This document shows positions 3,634 to 26,671 of a stretch of 27,718 nt of DNA, piece after piece. Each line of letters starts with the position of its first letter. The first letter of the stretch is position 1. The position numbers and the translations under genes are program-made. The stretch is from a virus: positions 1 through 27,718 of the IMG/VR virus record IMGVR_UViG_3300043467_000479; one strand, written 5' to 3'. The notes under the pieces were generated by a model. That model was not told the DNA's origin. It worked only from the letters and a program-made list of their open reading frames with translations, and searched no databases.

Positions 3634-6600
3634 GTGGCACAATCAGTCGGAAGTCTCAATGTAGAACTCAGTGCTGATGCCTCGAAACTCAAACAAGGCG
3701 TCGCTCAGGCCGTCAAAACAATTGACCAACTCGGTGAGAAGTTCGATGAGGTAGGTCGAGACGCAACTGCTGGTATGGCGAAAGCCGAGCGAGCGGTCAC
3801 AAAGGTTGCCCAAGAGACCAAACAATCTCTCAGCAAAGTTCAACAAGCGTACGCGAAAGCGTCTTACGGTGTCGACGAGTTCAGTCTTGCTTATCATCAG
3901 ATGGCGCAGAAGGTTGCTAGAGACTCTAAGAAGATTGAGCAAGCCAGTGACAGTGCTTCTCGTGTAGGTAACAAGTTCACCGACATGGGTAGCAAGATGA
4001 CTTCTGTCGGCACGAAGATGTCGATGGCTTTGACTGCACCTATGTTGCTCGCGGGTGGTCAAGCGATAAAGACAGCGAACGACTTTGAGTTCTCGATGCA
4101 GTCAATCGTGGCGATGGTCGGTTTGTCTGAAGACAAAGTTGCTGACATGGGTATCGCCGCTCGTGAAATGGCGAAGCAATACGGTGGCAGTGCTACTCAA
4201 GCCGCTGATGCTTTGTACTTCGTTGCGTCAGCAGGTATCGACGGTGCGACAGCGATGCAAGTTCTTGAGCAGTCGTTGAAAGCGACAGCGATTGGTATGG
4301 GCGATACGAGCATTATTGCTGACACTGTGTCGTCTGCGTTGAACGCTTACGGTATCGAGAACTTGTCTGCGGCTCAAGCAACAGACTTGATGGTTGCGGC
4401 TGTTCGTGAAGGCAAGATGGAAGCAGATCAGTTGGCTGGGGCGTTGCCTAGAGTTCTGCCGATTGCGTCAGCGATGGGTGTTTCGTTCAACGAAGTCGGT
4501 GCGGCTTTTGCGGCGATGAGTCGTAACGGTACAGATGCAAGCGAAGCGGCAACTCAGATACGTGGAATCTTGGGTTCTTTGTTGACACCAACTAAAGAAG
4601 CAGAAGAGACGATGAACAGTCTCGGTCTGAGCAGTCAAGGCTTACGTCAACAGATCAAAGAGAAGGGCTTGCTGTCAGCGTTGCAGACACTGACACAAGC
4701 GTTCGGTGATAACGAACAAGCACAAGGACTCGTCTTCGGCAACGTTCGTGCGTTGACAGGTATCATGAGTATGTTCGGTGCGGCAACAGAGAGCACGACA
4801 AAGATATTCAACAACCTTGCTGACAACACAGGCGACGCAGACAAAGCGTTCCAAGCAATGTCATCGACAGGTGCTTTCAAGATGAAGCAAGTCATGGCAG
4901 AAGTGAAAGACGCTTTCATAAGCCTTGGTCAAGTGCTCGTGCCAATCGTTGTGCCTGCATTGAAGTTGCTTGCAACAGCCTTCGAGAAGGTCATGACGGC
5001 TATCAACGCTCTACCGAACTTCATGAAGACGATCATCGTTGTGTTCGCTGGTCTTGTTGCCGTCGGTGGTCCGTTGTTGATCACGCTCGGTTCGTTAGTG
5101 AAAGCGTGGGCCGCATTGAAAGCCGCTATGGCGACGACAGCGTTCACGAGTGCGATCGCACAGTTTGCGGCGGCTGGACCAATCATTGCTGGTGTTGCTG
5201 TAGCGGTAGTCGCTGTAGCGGCAGTGTGGTACACGTTCAGTCAGAACGCACAAGAAGCCAAAGAAAGACAAGAGCGATTGACTGACGCGTTCAAGTCAGC
5301 AGGTGAACCGACCGCTGTACTTCACGAGCAAGTCAAGGCTCTCGTCGATGAATACATTAAGTTGCAAGGAACTTTGCCTGCTACTACTAATGCGGCTGAA
5401 AGTGTTGCTGAGGCTTTTGCAACGGCTGAAGCGATGACGATGGGTATCAACGATGAGATCGGTGACCTGAATCTAACAATGTCAGAAGTCAGTCAAGTAT
5501 TAGCGACAGGCACTGATGCCTTCGGTGACCTTGGTGACGTGTTGTTAGGACTGTCGTACGATCAACTTGTTCAGACAGGCGAAGCCGCAATAGGAGTCAC
5601 GTCTGCTTTGCAAAGTGCCGCTGATGCTGGCACACCCTTTGCGGGTGCGATGCTTGAAGCAGTGAGGGCTGGAGAGATGACGGGCGAACAGGTGAAGAAC
5701 TTGTTGTACGACCTGCATGATCTGTCTAACGCTTTCGATGACAACAGAGAAGCGTTGAACAATGAGAACAAGGCCTTGCTAGAGAACGCTGACACCGCCA
5801 AGTATTTCTCTTCAATACTTGGTAGCGACCTTTACAATGCAATTCTCGGCTCAAGTGGGGCTATGGCTGTAGCCGCTGGTCGCACTGATGTCTATACGTA
5901 CACCGTTGAAGAATTGACTCGTCGAACAGTTAGCGCAACAGCGGCGCAGAACGCTTACTTAGGAGGGTTCGCTGGTGTGTTCCCTGAAGTAATAACTACA
6001 GCAGGCAAAGTTGTACAAGAACTATCTGTTATATACGGCGAGTTAGCAAGTGAAAGCGACAAGGGTACAGTCGCTCAAGATAGGTTCTTGGCGAAGATTG
6101 GTTTGCTCGACGAGATGCTTGCTAACGAATTAGTCGTCAGCACGCAAGACGCAATCGACAAGAACATCAAACTCGCAGACACTCTTGGCGACTCACAGGG
6201 TTCTGCACTTGATCTCAGTTCTGCTTATCGTAACCAAGCGAAAGAGATCACGACACTGTTGCTGAAGACGGCTCAGTACGGTGGTTCTAACAAAGACGCA
6301 ATGCAATCAGTCGCACTTATGGTTCTTCGGTTGGGTGATGCCGCACGTGCGGCTGGGTACACCGATGAGCAGGTACGTGGACTCATTGACTCGATGGGGA
6401 TACTCGACGGACTTGAGGCACAGTTCGGTGTGAACTTTGCTATCAACACCGCTGACCTCGATAAGCAGATCGCAAACATAGAAGCCGCTATCGGCAATAT
6501 GTTGTGGTTCGCTGGTGCGGCAACAGGTGACACCACTTCCAAACTAAGTAAGACTCTTGCAGACTTGAAAGCAATCAAGTCTGCGATAGGTAGTTCAAGC

Positions 6601-21980: not shown

Positions 21981-22229
21981 ATGACAGACATAACCACAAC
22001 CGAACCAATGAACGACAAACTCAATGAGGCTCGCCGCCTCACAGGACAGATGCGTGAACTCGAACAAGAGATCATGAATCTCAATAATCAACGTAGAAAC
22101 CTGATACGGTCATCATGGAAGGACGATGGACTTCCCCAACGTCAAATCGCAAACGCTCTCGGCCTGACCAATCAAACGGTATGGAATGAGATCCACCGAA
22201 AGGACAGCAATGACTCTTCTACCAAGTGA
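21981..22229 (+). CDS. Small helix-turn-helix protein
   Basis: 82 residues with AGGAGG before ATG 21981. Residues 1-45 form a coiled coil (ARRLTGQMRELEQEIMNLNN), and residues 50-74 contain DDGLPQRQIANALGLTNQTV, a resolvase/sigma-like helix-turn-helix (GLTNQTVWNEI as recognition helix). It overlaps the ParB-like gene by 20 bases. It is the only clear HTH regulator-like protein in the window apart from the initiator, so it is a candidate to bind the palindromes at 1465, 15887 and 26811, or to guide the modification enzymes. Both uses are inference. Confidence 0.75.
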   Translation: MTDITTTEPMNDKLNEARRLTGQMRELEQEIMNLNNQRRNLIRSSWKDDGLPQRQIANALGLTNQTVWNEIHRKDSNDSSTK

Positions 22230-22812
22230 CTACGAACTGGTCGACGCAACAACACTGACACTCCACCCTGACAACGCACGACGAGGCAACGTCGAACGCT
22301 TAGAAGAATCAATCCGTACCAACGGCTTCTATGGTGCGCTTGTAGTACAGAAGGCAACACGCCACATCGTCGTCGGCAACCATCGCTATCAGGCTGCGGT
22401 CAATGTAGGCATCGAACAGATACCAGTGCTATGGGTAGACGTTGATGATCAGCAGGCTCGCAAACTACTTCTCGTAGACAACCGTTCAAACGATGTTGCG
22501 TCATACGACGACGACCTGTTGATCGACCTACTACGCCTCACACAAGCCGAAGGCGGGCTAGAGGGTTCGGGCTACAACGACATTGACCTTGAAGACTTAG
22601 AACGACTCTTGACCCCACCCAACCTCGACGACCTCATCAAGAACATTGGTGCTCACGACGACGACTCAGTGTTCAACCCCACCATCTCAATCAAGGTCGA
22701 ACCCGAAACCAATGCACGCTGGCAACGGGTGTTCGCAACAGTAGAAGGCAAAGACGATGACGAGCGAATCAACACACTCCTCGACTACGCCGACCCTCTC
22801 ATCAACGAATAA
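22210..22812 (+). CDS. ParB-like (ParB/sulfiredoxin-fold) protein next to DpdA
   Basis: 200 residues from ATG 22210. AAAGGA lies five to six bases upstream, so I prefer it to the ATG at 22186. Residues 9-100 show the ParB N-terminal fold: LHPDNARRGNVERLEESIRT, then VVGNHRYQAAVNVGIEQIPV, with the GNHRYQAA nucleotide-binding box at 56-63. There is no DNA-binding HTH of a true partition ParB, and no parA or parS is nearby. From memory, bacterial 7-deazaguanine insertion systems use DpdB, an ATPase related to ParB/sulfiredoxin folds, together with DpdA. This gene directly precedes DpdA, so a DpdB-like helper is plausible. The C-terminal half (ISIKVEPETNARWQRVFATV) has no assigned motif. Confidence 0.75.
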   Translation: MTLLPSDYELVDATTLTLHPDNARRGNVERLEESIRTNGFYGALVVQKATRHIVVGNHRYQAAVNVGIEQIPVLWVDVDDQQARKLLLVDNRSNDVASYDDDLLIDLLRLTQAEGGLEGSGYNDIDLEDLERLLTPPNLDDLIKNIGAHDDDSVFNPTISIKVEPETNARWQRVFATVEGKDDDERINTLLDYADPLINE

Positions 22813-22813
22813 C

Positions 22814-22891
22814 GGACCTCACGTTTACCTTGTAACGATGACCCATGAAGCCGACGCAATCACCAAAACAGGTCCGCACGTATACCTTGTA
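22814..22891 (+). repeat. Imperfect 21-base duplication around the DpdA start
   Basis: GGACCTCACGTTTACC... at 22814-22834 and GGTCCGCACGTATACC... at 22871-22891 match at 18 of 21 positions, 57 bases apart (19 codons, in frame). Both translate as GPHVYLV in the DpdA frame. The first copy is upstream of the preferred ATG. Confidence 0.7.
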
Positions 22892-23908
22892 CTTAGTGCT
22901 CTCAACAGCGTCGCGCCTATCGCAGAGGCAGATATGAAAGAACATACAGAAGGACTCAACCTTCATCTAGCCCTGAGCGGAGAAGAGAAACAACTGCCGA
23001 TCGTACCGACAACACAAGCACAACCCTTCAAGATGTTGATCTCATATCACTACTACAAGAAGGTCGACATCGCGGCAGTGCTAGCAAAGTTCCCAACACG
23101 CCCAATGGTGTTCGCCGATTCGGGTGCGTTCAGTGCTTACTCACAGGGTGCTGATGTAAAGGTTGCCGACTACGCGGCTTGGTTGAAACAATGGGAATCA
23201 CTGTTCACGACATACGTAAACCTTGACGTCATTAGAGATGCAAAAGCGACAGCCATCAACCAACGCTACTTAGAGAACCAAGGCTTGAATCCAATCCCTG
23301 TCGTGCATACAGGTACTGATCTCAAAGTTCTTGATGACATGGCAAAGAATTACGGCTACATCGCCCTCGGTGGAATGGTTGGCGTACCCGGCCCAACAGC
23401 GTTGAAGTGGACAGCGACGTGCTTCAAACGAGTTGAGGGTAAGGACACAGTGTTTCACGGCTTCGGTCAAACACGCAACGACATCATTCAAGCGTTACCT
23501 TGGTTCAGTGTTGACTCATCATCATGGGGAATGGGACATCGCTTCGGTCGACTAGCAGTGTGGACAGGACGTAAGTTCGAAACCTGTGGAGTCGGTGACG
23601 CGCAGTCTGTTTACAAGGTCGCGTCGTTCATTCGTAAGTACGGTGGTGACCCTGAAGACCTAGCCGACCGCTCGCGCTATCACAGAACAAAGATCATTCC
23701 CGTAGCCGCTAACTCTTGGAGAGCATACGAGCAGTTCCTAAGAAAGAAACATGGTGCGGTGCCATTACCAACACGTGCAAACAAACTGCATCACTACCGT
23801 GGCGCTATTGATGACATAGCATCACAAGGCGACAAAGGTTTACACCTACACCTCGCCGAAGGGTCAATAGAAAACCTACTCACAGCAGCCAAAGGAGAAA
23901 CAGAATGA
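22838..23908 (+). CDS. dpdA: DpdA-like DNA guanine transglycosylase (preQ0 insertion)
   Basis: 356 residues from ATG 22838; a longer frame from 22757 would overlap the ParB-like gene. The fold is the tRNA-guanine transglycosylase type: MVFADSGAFSAYSQG (Asp94, matching DSGGF of TGT), YVNLDVI (Asp130), YIALGGMVG (176-182), FHGFGQ (206-211) and FSVDSSSWGMG (Asp226, near the expected nucleophile region). ISYHYYKK at 68-75 is another phrase I recall from phage DpdA proteins. It should replace guanine in DNA with a 7-deazaguanine base. The four preQ0 genes follow at once, overlapping by four bases at QueC, which is strong context. A cellular tRNA TGT would not sit in such a cassette. Confidence 0.85.
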   Translation: MTHEADAITKTGPHVYLVLSALNSVAPIAEADMKEHTEGLNLHLALSGEEKQLPIVPTTQAQPFKMLISYHYYKKVDIAAVLAKFPTRPMVFADSGAFSAYSQGADVKVADYAAWLKQWESLFTTYVNLDVIRDAKATAINQRYLENQGLNPIPVVHTGTDLKVLDDMAKNYGYIALGGMVGVPGPTALKWTATCFKRVEGKDTVFHGFGQTRNDIIQALPWFSVDSSSWGMGHRFGRLAVWTGRKFETCGVGDAQSVYKVASFIRKYGGDPEDLADRSRYHRTKIIPVAANSWRAYEQFLRKKHGAVPLPTRANKLHHYRGAIDDIASQGDKGLHLHLAEGSIENLLTAAKGETE

Positions 23909-24594
23909 AAGCGTTAGCAATCGTCAGCGGCGGTATGGACTCAACAGTTCTCACCTACGACCTAGTCAATAAGGGTTACGACGTTCATCTCATGTCGTTC
24001 AACTACGGACAACGACACAAGAAAGAACTTGACTACGCCAAGATCACATCAGGCAAACTCCGTCTCAACCACACCATTGTCGACATCACACACCTCACAG
24101 GACTCATCAGTAAGTCCACACTGACCAGCGACGCACCCGTACCCGACGGTCACTACGCCGAAGACAACATGAGAAAGACGGTCGTACCGAACCGCAACAG
24201 CATCATGCTCAACATCGCTGCGGGATACGCCGTCACTATGGGCGCGAACGTTCTCGCTACTGCTGTCCACTCAGGCGACCACTACATCTACCCTGACTGC
24301 CGACCACAGTTCATTGACGCCCTACAGAACCTGCTTCACGTAGCCAACGAGGGTTTCATTGAAGAGGACTTCAAAGTGTTCGCTCCGTATGTACAAATCC
24401 CCAAAGATGGAATCTGTAGCATTGGCAACGACCTCAACGTACCGTGGCTCGACACTTGGTCGTGCTACAAGGGCAACGACATTCACTGCGGTTCGTGTGG
24501 TACTTGCTTTGAGCGTCGCGAGGCGTTTGAATTAGCAGGAGTAGAAGACCCAACCGAATACCTAGCGAGGCCACACTATGACGACCCAAGATGA
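23905..24594 (+). CDS. queC: 7-cyano-7-deazaguanine (preQ0) synthase
   Basis: 229 residues, normal length for QueC. SGGMDST (residues 8-14) is the ATP-binding loop. NYGQRHKKEL (33-42) and VPNRNS (94-99) are conserved substrate-region phrases. Cys187, Cys195, Cys198 and Cys201 (WSCYKGN, then HCGSCGTC) form the zinc site. It turns 7-carboxy-7-deazaguanine into preQ0 with ATP and ammonia. No amidotransferase (GAT) domain is fused, so archaeosine-type products are not expected from this protein. AAGGAGAA lies upstream, and its start overlaps the DpdA stop (ATGA). Confidence 0.95.
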   Translation: MKALAIVSGGMDSTVLTYDLVNKGYDVHLMSFNYGQRHKKELDYAKITSGKLRLNHTIVDITHLTGLISKSTLTSDAPVPDGHYAEDNMRKTVVPNRNSIMLNIAAGYAVTMGANVLATAVHSGDHYIYPDCRPQFIDALQNLLHVANEGFIEEDFKVFAPYVQIPKDGICSIGNDLNVPWLDTWSCYKGNDIHCGSCGTCFERREAFELAGVEDPTEYLARPHYDDPR

Positions 24595-25021
24595 AACCCT
24601 AAGAGTGATCAAACGCTTCGGCGGCTTCCCATGCTGTCACCGCCAATGGCGCGATCGTGGTCACTGCCATTACCTACACGGGTACGACCGCTGGGTCGAA
24701 GTTGAATGGGAAGGTACACGAGACGAACGAGGTTGGGTAGTTGACTTCGCCGACCTCAAAATCTTACGTGACGCTCTTGAGTATCAATTCGATCACACTG
24801 TGCTAGTGAGCGAGGACGACCCGTGCCTAGAACAGATCCAATACCTCGGCGCTGCGGACGCTTTAGACCTTCGCATCATGGACCCAACAATGGAAGGCAT
24901 GGTCAATTGGGTACGTGACCAAGCAGTTACATTGACCAACACAAGATTCCCGAACGCCAAGGTCATTCGAGTGACGTGTTGGGAGAACGAAAAGAACGCC
25001 GCGTCGTGGCAGGCGAGTTGA
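24578..25021 (+). CDS. queD: 6-carboxy-5,6,7,8-tetrahydropterin synthase-like, variant zinc site
   Basis: 147 residues, overlapping QueC by 17 bases. Pattern: RFGGFPCCHRQW (His21 zinc ligand), then GHCHYLHGYDRWVEV where Cys30 is the catalytic Cys and His34 a zinc ligand. The usual motif is CxxxHGH, but position 36 is Tyr instead of His. His31 is nearby and may take over. Further matches are GWVVDFADLK (52-61), FDHTVL (Asp72-His73) and Glu136. Action: dihydroneopterin triphosphate to 6-carboxytetrahydropterin, the second step to preQ0. The genome context makes this the QueD of the set despite the altered ligand. Confidence 0.9.
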   Translation: MTTQDETLRVIKRFGGFPCCHRQWRDRGHCHYLHGYDRWVEVEWEGTRDERGWVVDFADLKILRDALEYQFDHTVLVSEDDPCLEQIQYLGAADALDLRIMDPTMEGMVNWVRDQAVTLTNTRFPNAKVIRVTCWENEKNAASWQAS

Positions 25022-25764
25022 TGACCGACTACTACGTGATACAGAACGGACGCTCACTAAGTGTTGCTGAGAAGTTCGGTCCTACGTTGCAAGGCGAAGG
25101 ACCATCACTCGGTAAGCCAGCCATGTTCTTACGCTTGGGTCTTTGCAACCTTGACTGCTCGTGGTGTGACACACCCTTCACATGGGATTGGACTGGTAAG
25201 AACGGAGTCAAGTACGACAAGGCCGAACAACTGTCACGCGTAACACTTGAAGAGATTGTCGATTGGTTTGTGGCAAGCGGTACTAACCGACTCGTCATTA
25301 CTGGTGGCGAGCCGTTGGTACAGAAGGCTGGACTGGTCAAACTGGTACACCTGTTGCTCGACGTGAACCCCGACTACCGCATTGAGATCGAAACCAACGG
25401 AACGATTGAACCGCCGTTAGCAATCTTTGAACTCGTGCAGTGGAACATCTCACCGAAACTCGCGTCGTCGGGAGTTCACATTGCGAAGCGTTACATACCG
25501 AACGCTCTTGAACGTTTCACGGAATGTCCACAACACTCATTCAAGTTTGTTATCTGCGACCCTGTACGTGACCTACTTGAGATCAAAGAGATGGTTCGTC
25601 TCCACGGCCTGTCTATGCAAGACGTCTACTTGATGCCCGAAGGCCGAAGCGCAGACGAGATCAACGCTCGCCTACCCGAACTCTTTGACATCGCCACAAC
25701 AGAAGGCACTAATGTCACCACACGCCTTCACGTCCTAGCCTTCGGTGACCGCAGAGGAGTATGA
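25021..25764 (+). CDS. queE: 7-carboxy-7-deazaguanine synthase (radical SAM)
   Basis: 247 residues from ATG 25021, overlapping the QueD stop by one base. The earlier in-frame ATG at 24976 lies inside QueD. The radical-SAM cluster motif is CNLDCSWC at residues 42-49 (CxxxCxxC). GPTLQGEGPSLGKPAMFLRL (20-39) is the typical QueE opening and VITGGEPLVQ (92-101) the SAM-binding GGE motif. IEIETNGTIEPP and WNISPKLASSG are also typical. It rearranges 6-carboxytetrahydropterin to 7-carboxy-7-deazaguanine. Length is in the usual range for the longer QueE form. Confidence 0.95.
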   Translation: MTDYYVIQNGRSLSVAEKFGPTLQGEGPSLGKPAMFLRLGLCNLDCSWCDTPFTWDWTGKNGVKYDKAEQLSRVTLEEIVDWFVASGTNRLVITGGEPLVQKAGLVKLVHLLLDVNPDYRIEIETNGTIEPPLAIFELVQWNISPKLASSGVHIAKRYIPNALERFTECPQHSFKFVICDPVRDLLEIKEMVRLHGLSMQDVYLMPEGRSADEINARLPELFDIATTEGTNVTTRLHVLAFGDRRGV

Positions 25765-25765
25765 A

Positions 25766-26671
25766 ATGACAACCACCCTGACTCTCACTTGGAACGACAT
25801 CAACGAACAGGTCGACAAACTTTGTTTGCGTGTACGTAACAACCCGACAGGCGTTTACGGCATACCAACTGGCGGTGCGGTCGTCGCAGCACTGGTTGCA
25901 AACAAACTCGGCTTGCCACTACGTGAAACAGCCGACGACCCCCACACGCTCATCGTTGACGACCTCATCGACACAGGGCGCACAATGAAACAGGTGCGAC
26001 CCGACGGTGGAATCCATGTTGAAACTTTGTACCGCAAGCCGTGGTCGCCCGCAATGTATTCACCGAACGCAACCACGACCGACCGTTGGCTCGCGTTTCC
26101 GTGGGAGAAAGAAGACGGCGACCCTGTCGATGCAGTTATTCGTTTGCTTCAACACGTCGGCGAAGACCCCACACGTGACGGCTTACTCGAAACACCACGG
26201 CGCGTCACGAAGGCTTGGCGTGAACTGACTAAGGGTTACGGCGACAACCCAGCAGTGATTCTCAGTAAGACATTTGATGTGAAGTACGACGAGATGGTCG
26301 TTGTTCGCCAACTGCCATTCACGTCACTGTGCGAGCACCACATCCTTCCGTTCATCGGTCATGCGACGATCGCTTACATCCCGACGTCACGTGTTGTCGG
26401 TTTGTCGAAGTTGGCTCGCCTGCTTGACTGCTACGCAAACAGGTTGCAGGTTCAAGAGCGCCTCACTGGACAACTCGCAGACGCCATCGAGGAACACTTG
26501 CAACCGAAGGGCGTCGGCATTGTCGTGTCGGCACAGCACACGTGCATGAGTATGCGTGGCATCAAGAAGAGTGGCGACACAGTGACGAGTGCCATGCGTG
26601 GAGTGTTCAGGACCAACCCCGAAGCCCGAGCCGAGTTGCTGTCCCTGCATCAAACACCTGTCAAGCCCTGA
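25766..26671 (+). CDS. folE: Fusion of short phosphoribosyltransferase and GTP cyclohydrolase I
   Basis: 301 residues from ATG 25766 (AGAGGAG upstream; TGA-A-ATG after QueE). Residues 1-115 are a small type I phosphoribosyltransferase: VYGIPTGGAVVAALVANKLG (30-49) is the pyrophosphate loop region and LIVDDLIDTGRT (62-73) the PRPP-binding motif. The gap between them is about 30 residues, shorter than in usual enzymes, so the flexible catalytic loop seems reduced. Residues about 120-295 are a full GTP cyclohydrolase I: GLLETPRRV (139-147), SLCEHHILPF with Cys189 and His192, and SAQHTCMSMRG with Cys260, the three zinc ligands. It makes dihydroneopterin triphosphate, the first step to preQ0. The attached domain may supply or recycle purine nucleotides. 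Confidence 0.93.
   Translation: MTTTLTLTWNDINEQVDKLCLRVRNNPTGVYGIPTGGAVVAALVANKLGLPLRETADDPHTLIVDDLIDTGRTMKQVRPDGGIHVETLYRKPWSPAMYSPNATTTDRWLAFPWEKEDGDPVDAVIRLLQHVGEDPTRDGLLETPRRVTKAWRELTKGYGDNPAVILSKTFDVKYDEMVVVRQLPFTSLCEHHILPFIGHATIAYIPTSRVVGLSKLARLLDCYANRLQVQERLTGQLADAIEEHLQPKGVGIVVSAQHTCMSMRGIKKSGDTVTSAMRGVFRTNPEARAELLSLHQTPVKP

Follow-up and report, generated by a model that had tools for sequence, protein, structure and literature searches.

A loop-less phosphoribosyltransferase domain fused to GTP cyclohydrolase I in a predicted phage 7-deazaguanine DNA modification cassette

Introduction

Phages Rosebush and CAjan carry gene sets for FolE, QueD, QueE, QueC, and DpdA without an amidotransferase (group 2 of PMC6884629), and this minimal set yields preQ0 in DNA (dPreQ0) in both phages. 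Here, we describe a similar set in the IMG/VR virus record IMGVR_UViG_3300043467_000479, the whole of which (27,718 bases, referred to as the window) was analyzed and which is a fragment of a virus genome. The cassette itself is of a known kind; what is undescribed is the partner of its GTP cyclohydrolase I (FolE), a phosphoribosyltransferase (PRT) domain fused to the N terminus of the enzyme, and a literature search found no paper naming a PRT together with a phage FolE. The whole analysis was sequence based, with profile matches taken at a permissive threshold of 1e-3.

Several described systems resemble the window in part. Hedgerow, a Rosebushvirus, has the same gene order (DpdA-QueC-QueD-QueE-FolE), and Finch has this order with ParB in front. 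The FolE proteins of these two phages lack the PRT domain and are 191 and 187 amino acids long, compared to 301 for the window protein, and the DpdA of the window is only ∼31% identical to that of Hedgerow. The fusion is shared by VpKK5, NP1, MMDA13, and Bhz54 (Queuovirinae and related phages), where it is annotated as a GTP cyclohydrolase alone. The order in these four phages (QueE-QueC-QueD-FolE-DpdA-clamp-polymerase) is unlike that of the window, and some members of the group are expected to make another base, through Gat-QueC or a QueF-like gene. A loop-less PRT also adjoins FolE, in the company of QueD and QueE, in Flavobacterium phage immuto and in some 75 relatives from IMG/VR, but here the two are separate genes, the FolE belongs to a distinct lineage, and many of the loci have a DpdA3-like transglycosylase. 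The window does not resemble the bacterial dpd defense cluster: the DpdB and DpdC models matched none of the proteins scanned, and the PADLOC DpdA model reached only 0.0044.

A PRT domain precedes FolE in a single open reading frame

The last open reading frame (ORF) of the run had been read as FolE in the first-pass annotation, which was made from the sequence alone. Its FolE domain is real, but the PRT domain at the N terminus had been overlooked, and because the ORF encodes a fusion, the possible host needs of the cassette change. We regard the assignment of this ORF as a PRT-FolE fusion as practically certain. The PRT domain matched phrog_8995 (2e-13), NF006613 (the NCBIfam xanthine PRT model; 9e-12), and PF00156 (Pribosyltran; 1e-6), and a PDB sequence search returned a Pyrococcus purine PRT (1vdm; 4e-9) and Escherichia coli XGPRT (6e-6). 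Structure models were built from alignments from which the rows of phage records were left out. In the model of the whole fusion (mean pLDDT, 92.9), the N-terminal part aligned with E. coli XGPRT (4jls) at a Z score of 15.8 and with 1vdm at a Z score of 15.2 and a root mean square deviation (rmsd) of 2.3 over 113 residues. The FolE domain matched human GCH1 at a Z score of 24.9 and 48% identity, and its CEHH and HxC motifs, which hold the zinc Cys/His ligands and the catalytic His, were invariant in 58 copies. A chance origin of the PRT signal was rejected on the PDB sequence matches, the fold of the model, and the residues conserved in all copies.

The window PRT shares its fold, the loop that binds phosphoribosyl pyrophosphate (PRPP), and the purine pocket with E. 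coli Gpt (XGPRT) and the archaeal purine PRTs (1vdm and 4z1o). In an alignment of 70 distinct fused PRT sequences (308-residue numbering), D72, D73, D76, G78, T80, and the purine-stacking W115 were invariant, and the pocket residues K98 and E121 were kept in 63 and 69 copies, respectively. The ratio of nonsynonymous to synonymous substitution rates (dN/dS) relative to a 95% relative was 0.07 for the PRT part, indicating purifying selection on this domain, and was similar (0.06) for FolE.

Unlike the PRTs of E. coli and archaea, the window domain is fused to FolE and lacks loop II, a segment of ∼20 residues that would follow the diphosphate loop and precede the PRPP loop. Loop II covers the active site (PMC6783271). 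The distance from the GG to the PRPP motif was mostly 19 to 33 residues in the fused copies (one had 14, and seven were unreadable), compared to 47 in an E. coli Gpt reference that agrees with the PDB alignment. In PRT copies encoded by separate genes, the corresponding spacing was 25 to 36. Loop II was missing from every measurable copy, fused or separate, and PRTs with a full loop were met in other contexts alone (MaInes, StAshley, and phiST). Of the features of an active Gpt/HPRT-type enzyme, therefore, the PRPP loop and the purine pocket are present and the flexible loop II is absent.

Loop-less PRTs are associated with FolE across phages

The number of phage loci in which the PRT occurs together with FolE is well above 100 and includes cultured phages. 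All counts given here refer to contigs rather than to independent events. Loci of the fused set were ranked by similarity to the fusion; the PRT-seeded scan tests the link to FolE with less bias. A scan of viral contigs with five fusions returned 80 loci, and our own profile searches returned 84 fused ORFs, from which the 70 distinct PRT sequences were taken. Among 67 distinct fused loci, another gene of the pathway was present in 65 and DpdA in 62; the two loci with no other pathway gene were on contigs of 4.0 and 5.1 kb. The PRT-seeded scan found the PRT as a separate gene in 76 distinct loci, with FolE within 1 kb in 63 and another pathway gene likewise in 63, while FolE overall was present in 392 of 50,697 phage records. 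DpdA or a DpdA3-like protein was encoded in 25 of the 32 separate-gene loci that had full flanks.

The fusion occurs in such cultured phages as VpKK5, NP1, PaMx25, MMDA13, and Bhz54, and a plain FolE is found in 9g, Hedgerow, Cracklewink, RHEph04, MiCath, Finch, pVco-14, and Me-ZS1. The 80 bacterial proteins that matched FolE best all lacked the PRT in a search that was seeded on FolE, with none made on the PRT alone in bacteria. Pfam detected the PRT in only 19/60 fusions, which helps to explain why the domain has gone unannotated.

The FolE tree placed the fused copies in a single group of 54 rows that has weak support and also holds eight unfused copies (six changes), which would fit one old fusion followed by several losses. 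The FolEs located beside a separate PRT formed another lineage. On the PRT tree, which is based on few columns, the fused and separate copies each required one change (support of 59 and 92, respectively).

The idea that every phage neighborhood of FolE and a PRT belongs to a 7-deazaguanine phage did not quite hold. In the Brevundimonas phages MaInes and StAshley (L004:5322-6477 and L017:2157-3474), FolE adjoins a Gpt-like PRT whose loop is complete, near ribonucleotide reductase and a nucleotide kinase, and no preQ0 genes were annotated in the portions read. The window domain also matched separate PRT genes in Campylobacter phage CP220 and Cellulophaga phage phiST (L006:5998-6411 and L007:5980-6408).

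Possible functions of the PRT domain

Since phages keep the loop-less PRT as a dedicated FolE partner, either fused or adjoining, a regulatory, ligand-binding domain is the most likely interpretation; a retained ligand pocket, a lost catalytic cover, and a steady tie to FolE together suggest a sensor. Judged from the sequences, the domain has roughly an even chance of being a regulatory sensor of this kind rather than a catalyst. Its ligand would be PRPP, (p)ppGpp, or a guanine nucleotide, and by adjusting FolE it would fit the flux from GTP to the infected cell's purine state. There is precedent for a PRT fold that is kept for binding and attached to another function: the effector domain of Bacillus PurR is a PRT domain without enzymatic activity that is regulated by PRPP and (p)ppGpp (PMC8789054), although PurR is a DNA-binding repressor and the window PRT is not claimed as a member of its family. 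HPRT, in turn, binds (p)ppGpp at its PRPP motif, EDIIDSGLT, and binding of pppGpp persists when residues 70 to 76 of loop II are deleted (PMC6783271).

Several points weigh against a sensor. D76, the Asp that faces N7 in purine PRTs, is retained together with the Lys and Trp of the base pocket, and this is compatible with catalysis as well. Unfused phage FolEs are nested in the fused group of the tree, so that the PRT domain is dispensable in some phages. A longer engineered deletion of loop II strongly weakened pppGpp binding by HPRT (PMC6783271). A more specific form of the proposal, which we offer tentatively, is that, in phages with 7-deazaguanine DNA, the entry step at FolE is under the allosteric control of a Gpt domain that was captured and lost its catalysis and that, as a fused or separate subunit, reads the level of host PRPP, guanine nucleotide, or (p)ppGpp. 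If this is true, a phage DNA modification pathway would be tuned by the nucleotide signaling of its host.

The alternative that survives best, although we consider it rather unlikely, is a salvage loop in which the PRT is an active guanine phosphoribosyltransferase that recycles the guanine released by DpdA. One guanine would be freed per exchange and pass to GMP through the PRT, to GTP through host kinases, and through FolE to preQ0, with FolE or another subunit closing the active site in the stead of loop II. Such a loop is consistent with the retained purine pocket and PRPP residues, with the purine salvage enzymes that are the closest solved structures, and with the frequent presence of DpdA or a DpdA3-like protein in both fused and separate-gene loci. 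However, ordinary salvage would select for the retention of loop II, which is gone from all measurable copies, and two kinase steps lie between GMP and FolE, so the fusion would not join consecutive steps. Moreover, hosts usually possess salvage PRTs of their own. If the PRT either senses or recycles guanine, it would show how phages fund guanine modification without draining the GTP needed for replication.

An action of the PRT on an intermediate of the 7-deazaguanine or pterin type, such as the synthesis of a preQ0 nucleotide or the holding of preQ0 for DpdA, is improbable. The domain does belong to 7-deazaguanine cassettes and is not bound to one final base, as the fusion is accompanied by Gat-QueC in NP1, by a QueF-like gene in MMDA13, and by plain QueC in the window. 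However, the conserved Asp of purine PRTs, kept in 70/70 fused copies, pairs with the purine N7, which is absent from 7-deazapurines; the free base is the substrate of DpdA, and the constant partner of the domain is FolE, the GTP-using first step. We also think it quite unlikely that the PRT serves the FolE decamer structurally, as a spacer or for assembly, and that its pocket is a relic, since the pocket residues are its most conserved part and its dN/dS is as low as that of FolE, even though unfused FolEs are nested among fused ones and the FolE of phage 9g, which has no PRT, functions in E. coli (PMC6884629). The role of the domain, for which we prefer that of a sensor, is a simple question at the protein level and is open to test.

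The preQ0 pathway and the predicted base

The run from 22186 to 26671 is, with high probability, a phage cassette for 7-deazaguanine modification of DNA. Judging by their families, FolE, QueD, QueE, and QueC would turn GTP into preQ0, and DpdA would exchange guanine in the phage DNA for preQ0. Strong Pfam, PHROG, and NCBIfam matches bore out the presence of all four preQ0 families (Table 1). With dPreQ0 known as the product of the minimal set in Rosebush and CAjan, the same base is naturally predicted for the DNA of this phage, and by analogy the prediction is a sound one.

The first-pass annotation had also seen no QueF-like, amidotransferase, or DpdC-type gene that could modify preQ0 further. 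The window is a fragment, so statements on absence rest on a relative, G001, of 53,864 bases that is 75 to 92% identical to the window where alignable. The match wraps around the ends of G001 (window position 6334 corresponds to base 1 of G001 and position 6320 to its last base), which implies that G001 is circular or close to it; at the lengths tested, it showed no terminal repeat. It encodes terminase, portal, a Mu-F-like protein, protease, and the major head protein. In agreement with this, G001 has no GATase_6 (glutamine amidotransferase) domain and no QueF above the cut-off, and no DpdC was detected among the scanned proteins. A separate QueF domain, suggested by weak matches to the QueF model, was rejected because these fall inside the FolE domain alone, with which QueF shares the T-fold. 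Downstream of the cassette, past the end of the window, G001 encodes an N4/N6 DNA methyltransferase (L177:8585-9430, minus strand; PF01555, 2.7e-48).

DpdA and QueD

The homology of the predicted transglycosylase to phage DpdA was evident from its PHROG match, and 230 phage records matched it by tblastn; a scan for close relatives returned three contigs. Searches of Pfam, NCBIfam, and PDB sequences gave no convincing match to DpdA or a tRNA-guanine transglycosylase (TGT), and a comparison of folds was therefore needed. An AlphaFold2 model from a 51-row alignment had a mean pLDDT of 80.5, with low confidence for the first 59 residues. The top 50 structural rows were all TGTs, the best match being archaeosine TGT (Z score, 15.9; rmsd, 3.0 over 235 residues), and plain Foldseek gave one match below 1e-3, also a TGT. 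The DpdA/TGT fold proposed earlier was thus confirmed by a comparison that could have placed the protein outside it. D94 and D226 were invariant across the alignment; from their motif context, we take them to be the catalytic Asp pair of TGTs. A longer DpdA ORF opens at 22757, in frame upstream of the ATG at 22838. Near the DpdA start (22757-22890), two copies of the peptide GPHVYLV lie within ∼25 residues, perhaps from a small duplication.

QueD has the catalytic C27, the D70-H71 pair, and the pterin-binding E110 (E. coli numbering), but the canonical zinc His trio (16, 31, and 33) is altered, with Tyr at position 33. A His directly precedes the catalytic Cys. Among 77 phage QueDs, a His stood in this place in 15/15 copies with Tyr33 versus 2/62 copies with His33, and it is likely a relocated zinc ligand.

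Gene organization and neighboring genes

The genes form a single tight rightward run, as first annotated, in which neighbors overlap or lie at most 25 bases apart (Table 1). The gap between the stop of the ParB-like gene (22812) and the ATG of DpdA is 25 bases, followed by overlaps of 4 (DpdA/QueC), 17 (QueC/QueD), and 1 (QueD/QueE; QueE ATG at 25021). QueE stops at 25764, and the ATG of the fusion at 25766 has GAGGAG six bases 5′ of it; the ORF can alternatively start with a GTG at 25745 and ends at 26671. The same gene order was found again in related contigs and in actinobacteriophages, with family matches far above chance. At the DNA level, the cassette matched phage records in short stretches alone (3 to 4% of the query at ∼70% identity), and a scan for promoters and terminators returned nothing informative.

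Table 1. Genes and domains of the run, with their positions in the window
Feature	Positions	Strand	Evidence
Small helix-turn-helix (HTH) DNA-binding protein, 82 amino acids	21981..22229	+	HTH_38 2e-4, HTH_24 5e-4, phrog_686 8e-5
ParB-like protein, directly 5′ of DpdA	22186..22812	+	PF02195 1e-8, phrog_723 3e-35
DpdA-type DNA guanine transglycosylase, 356 amino acids	22838..23908	+	phrog_7068 2e-48
QueC	23905..24594	+	TIGR00364 1.6e-56 (above cut-off), PF06508 4e-61; SGGMDS loop and four-Cys cluster
QueD	24578..25021	+	PF01242 1e-22, phrog_2389 2e-33; HC..LHGY zinc-site variant
QueE radical SAM enzyme	25021..25764	+	phrog_2076 3e-51, TIGR03365 6e-29; CxxxCxxC as CNLDCSWC
PRT-FolE fusion protein, 301 amino acids	25766..26671	+	Two domains in a single open frame
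Gpt-like PRT domain without loop II, residues 1-115	25766..26110	+	Profile, PDB, and fold matches
PRPP-binding loop LIVDDLIDTGRT	25949..25984	+	Its three Asp residues, Gly, and Thr are kept in 70/70 distinct fused copies
GTP cyclohydrolase I (FolE) domain	26129..26659	+	TIGR00063 1e-65 (above cut-off), PF01227 6e-70

The range first assigned to the cassette, 21981-26671, does hold the preQ0 set but opens with the HTH and ParB-like genes, which do not encode preQ0 enzymes. The HTH protein is probably regulatory. A ParB gene was present in 30/67 fused-cassette loci and also precedes DpdA in Cracklewink and Finch; the ParB-like protein of the window is a possible DNA-targeting partner of DpdA. 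ParBc proteins have also been found with the CmoX cytosine modification genes of phages (PMC12783734). The window protein is additionally similar to ParB-methyltransferase fusions in their ParB part (phrog_498 and PDLC03229).

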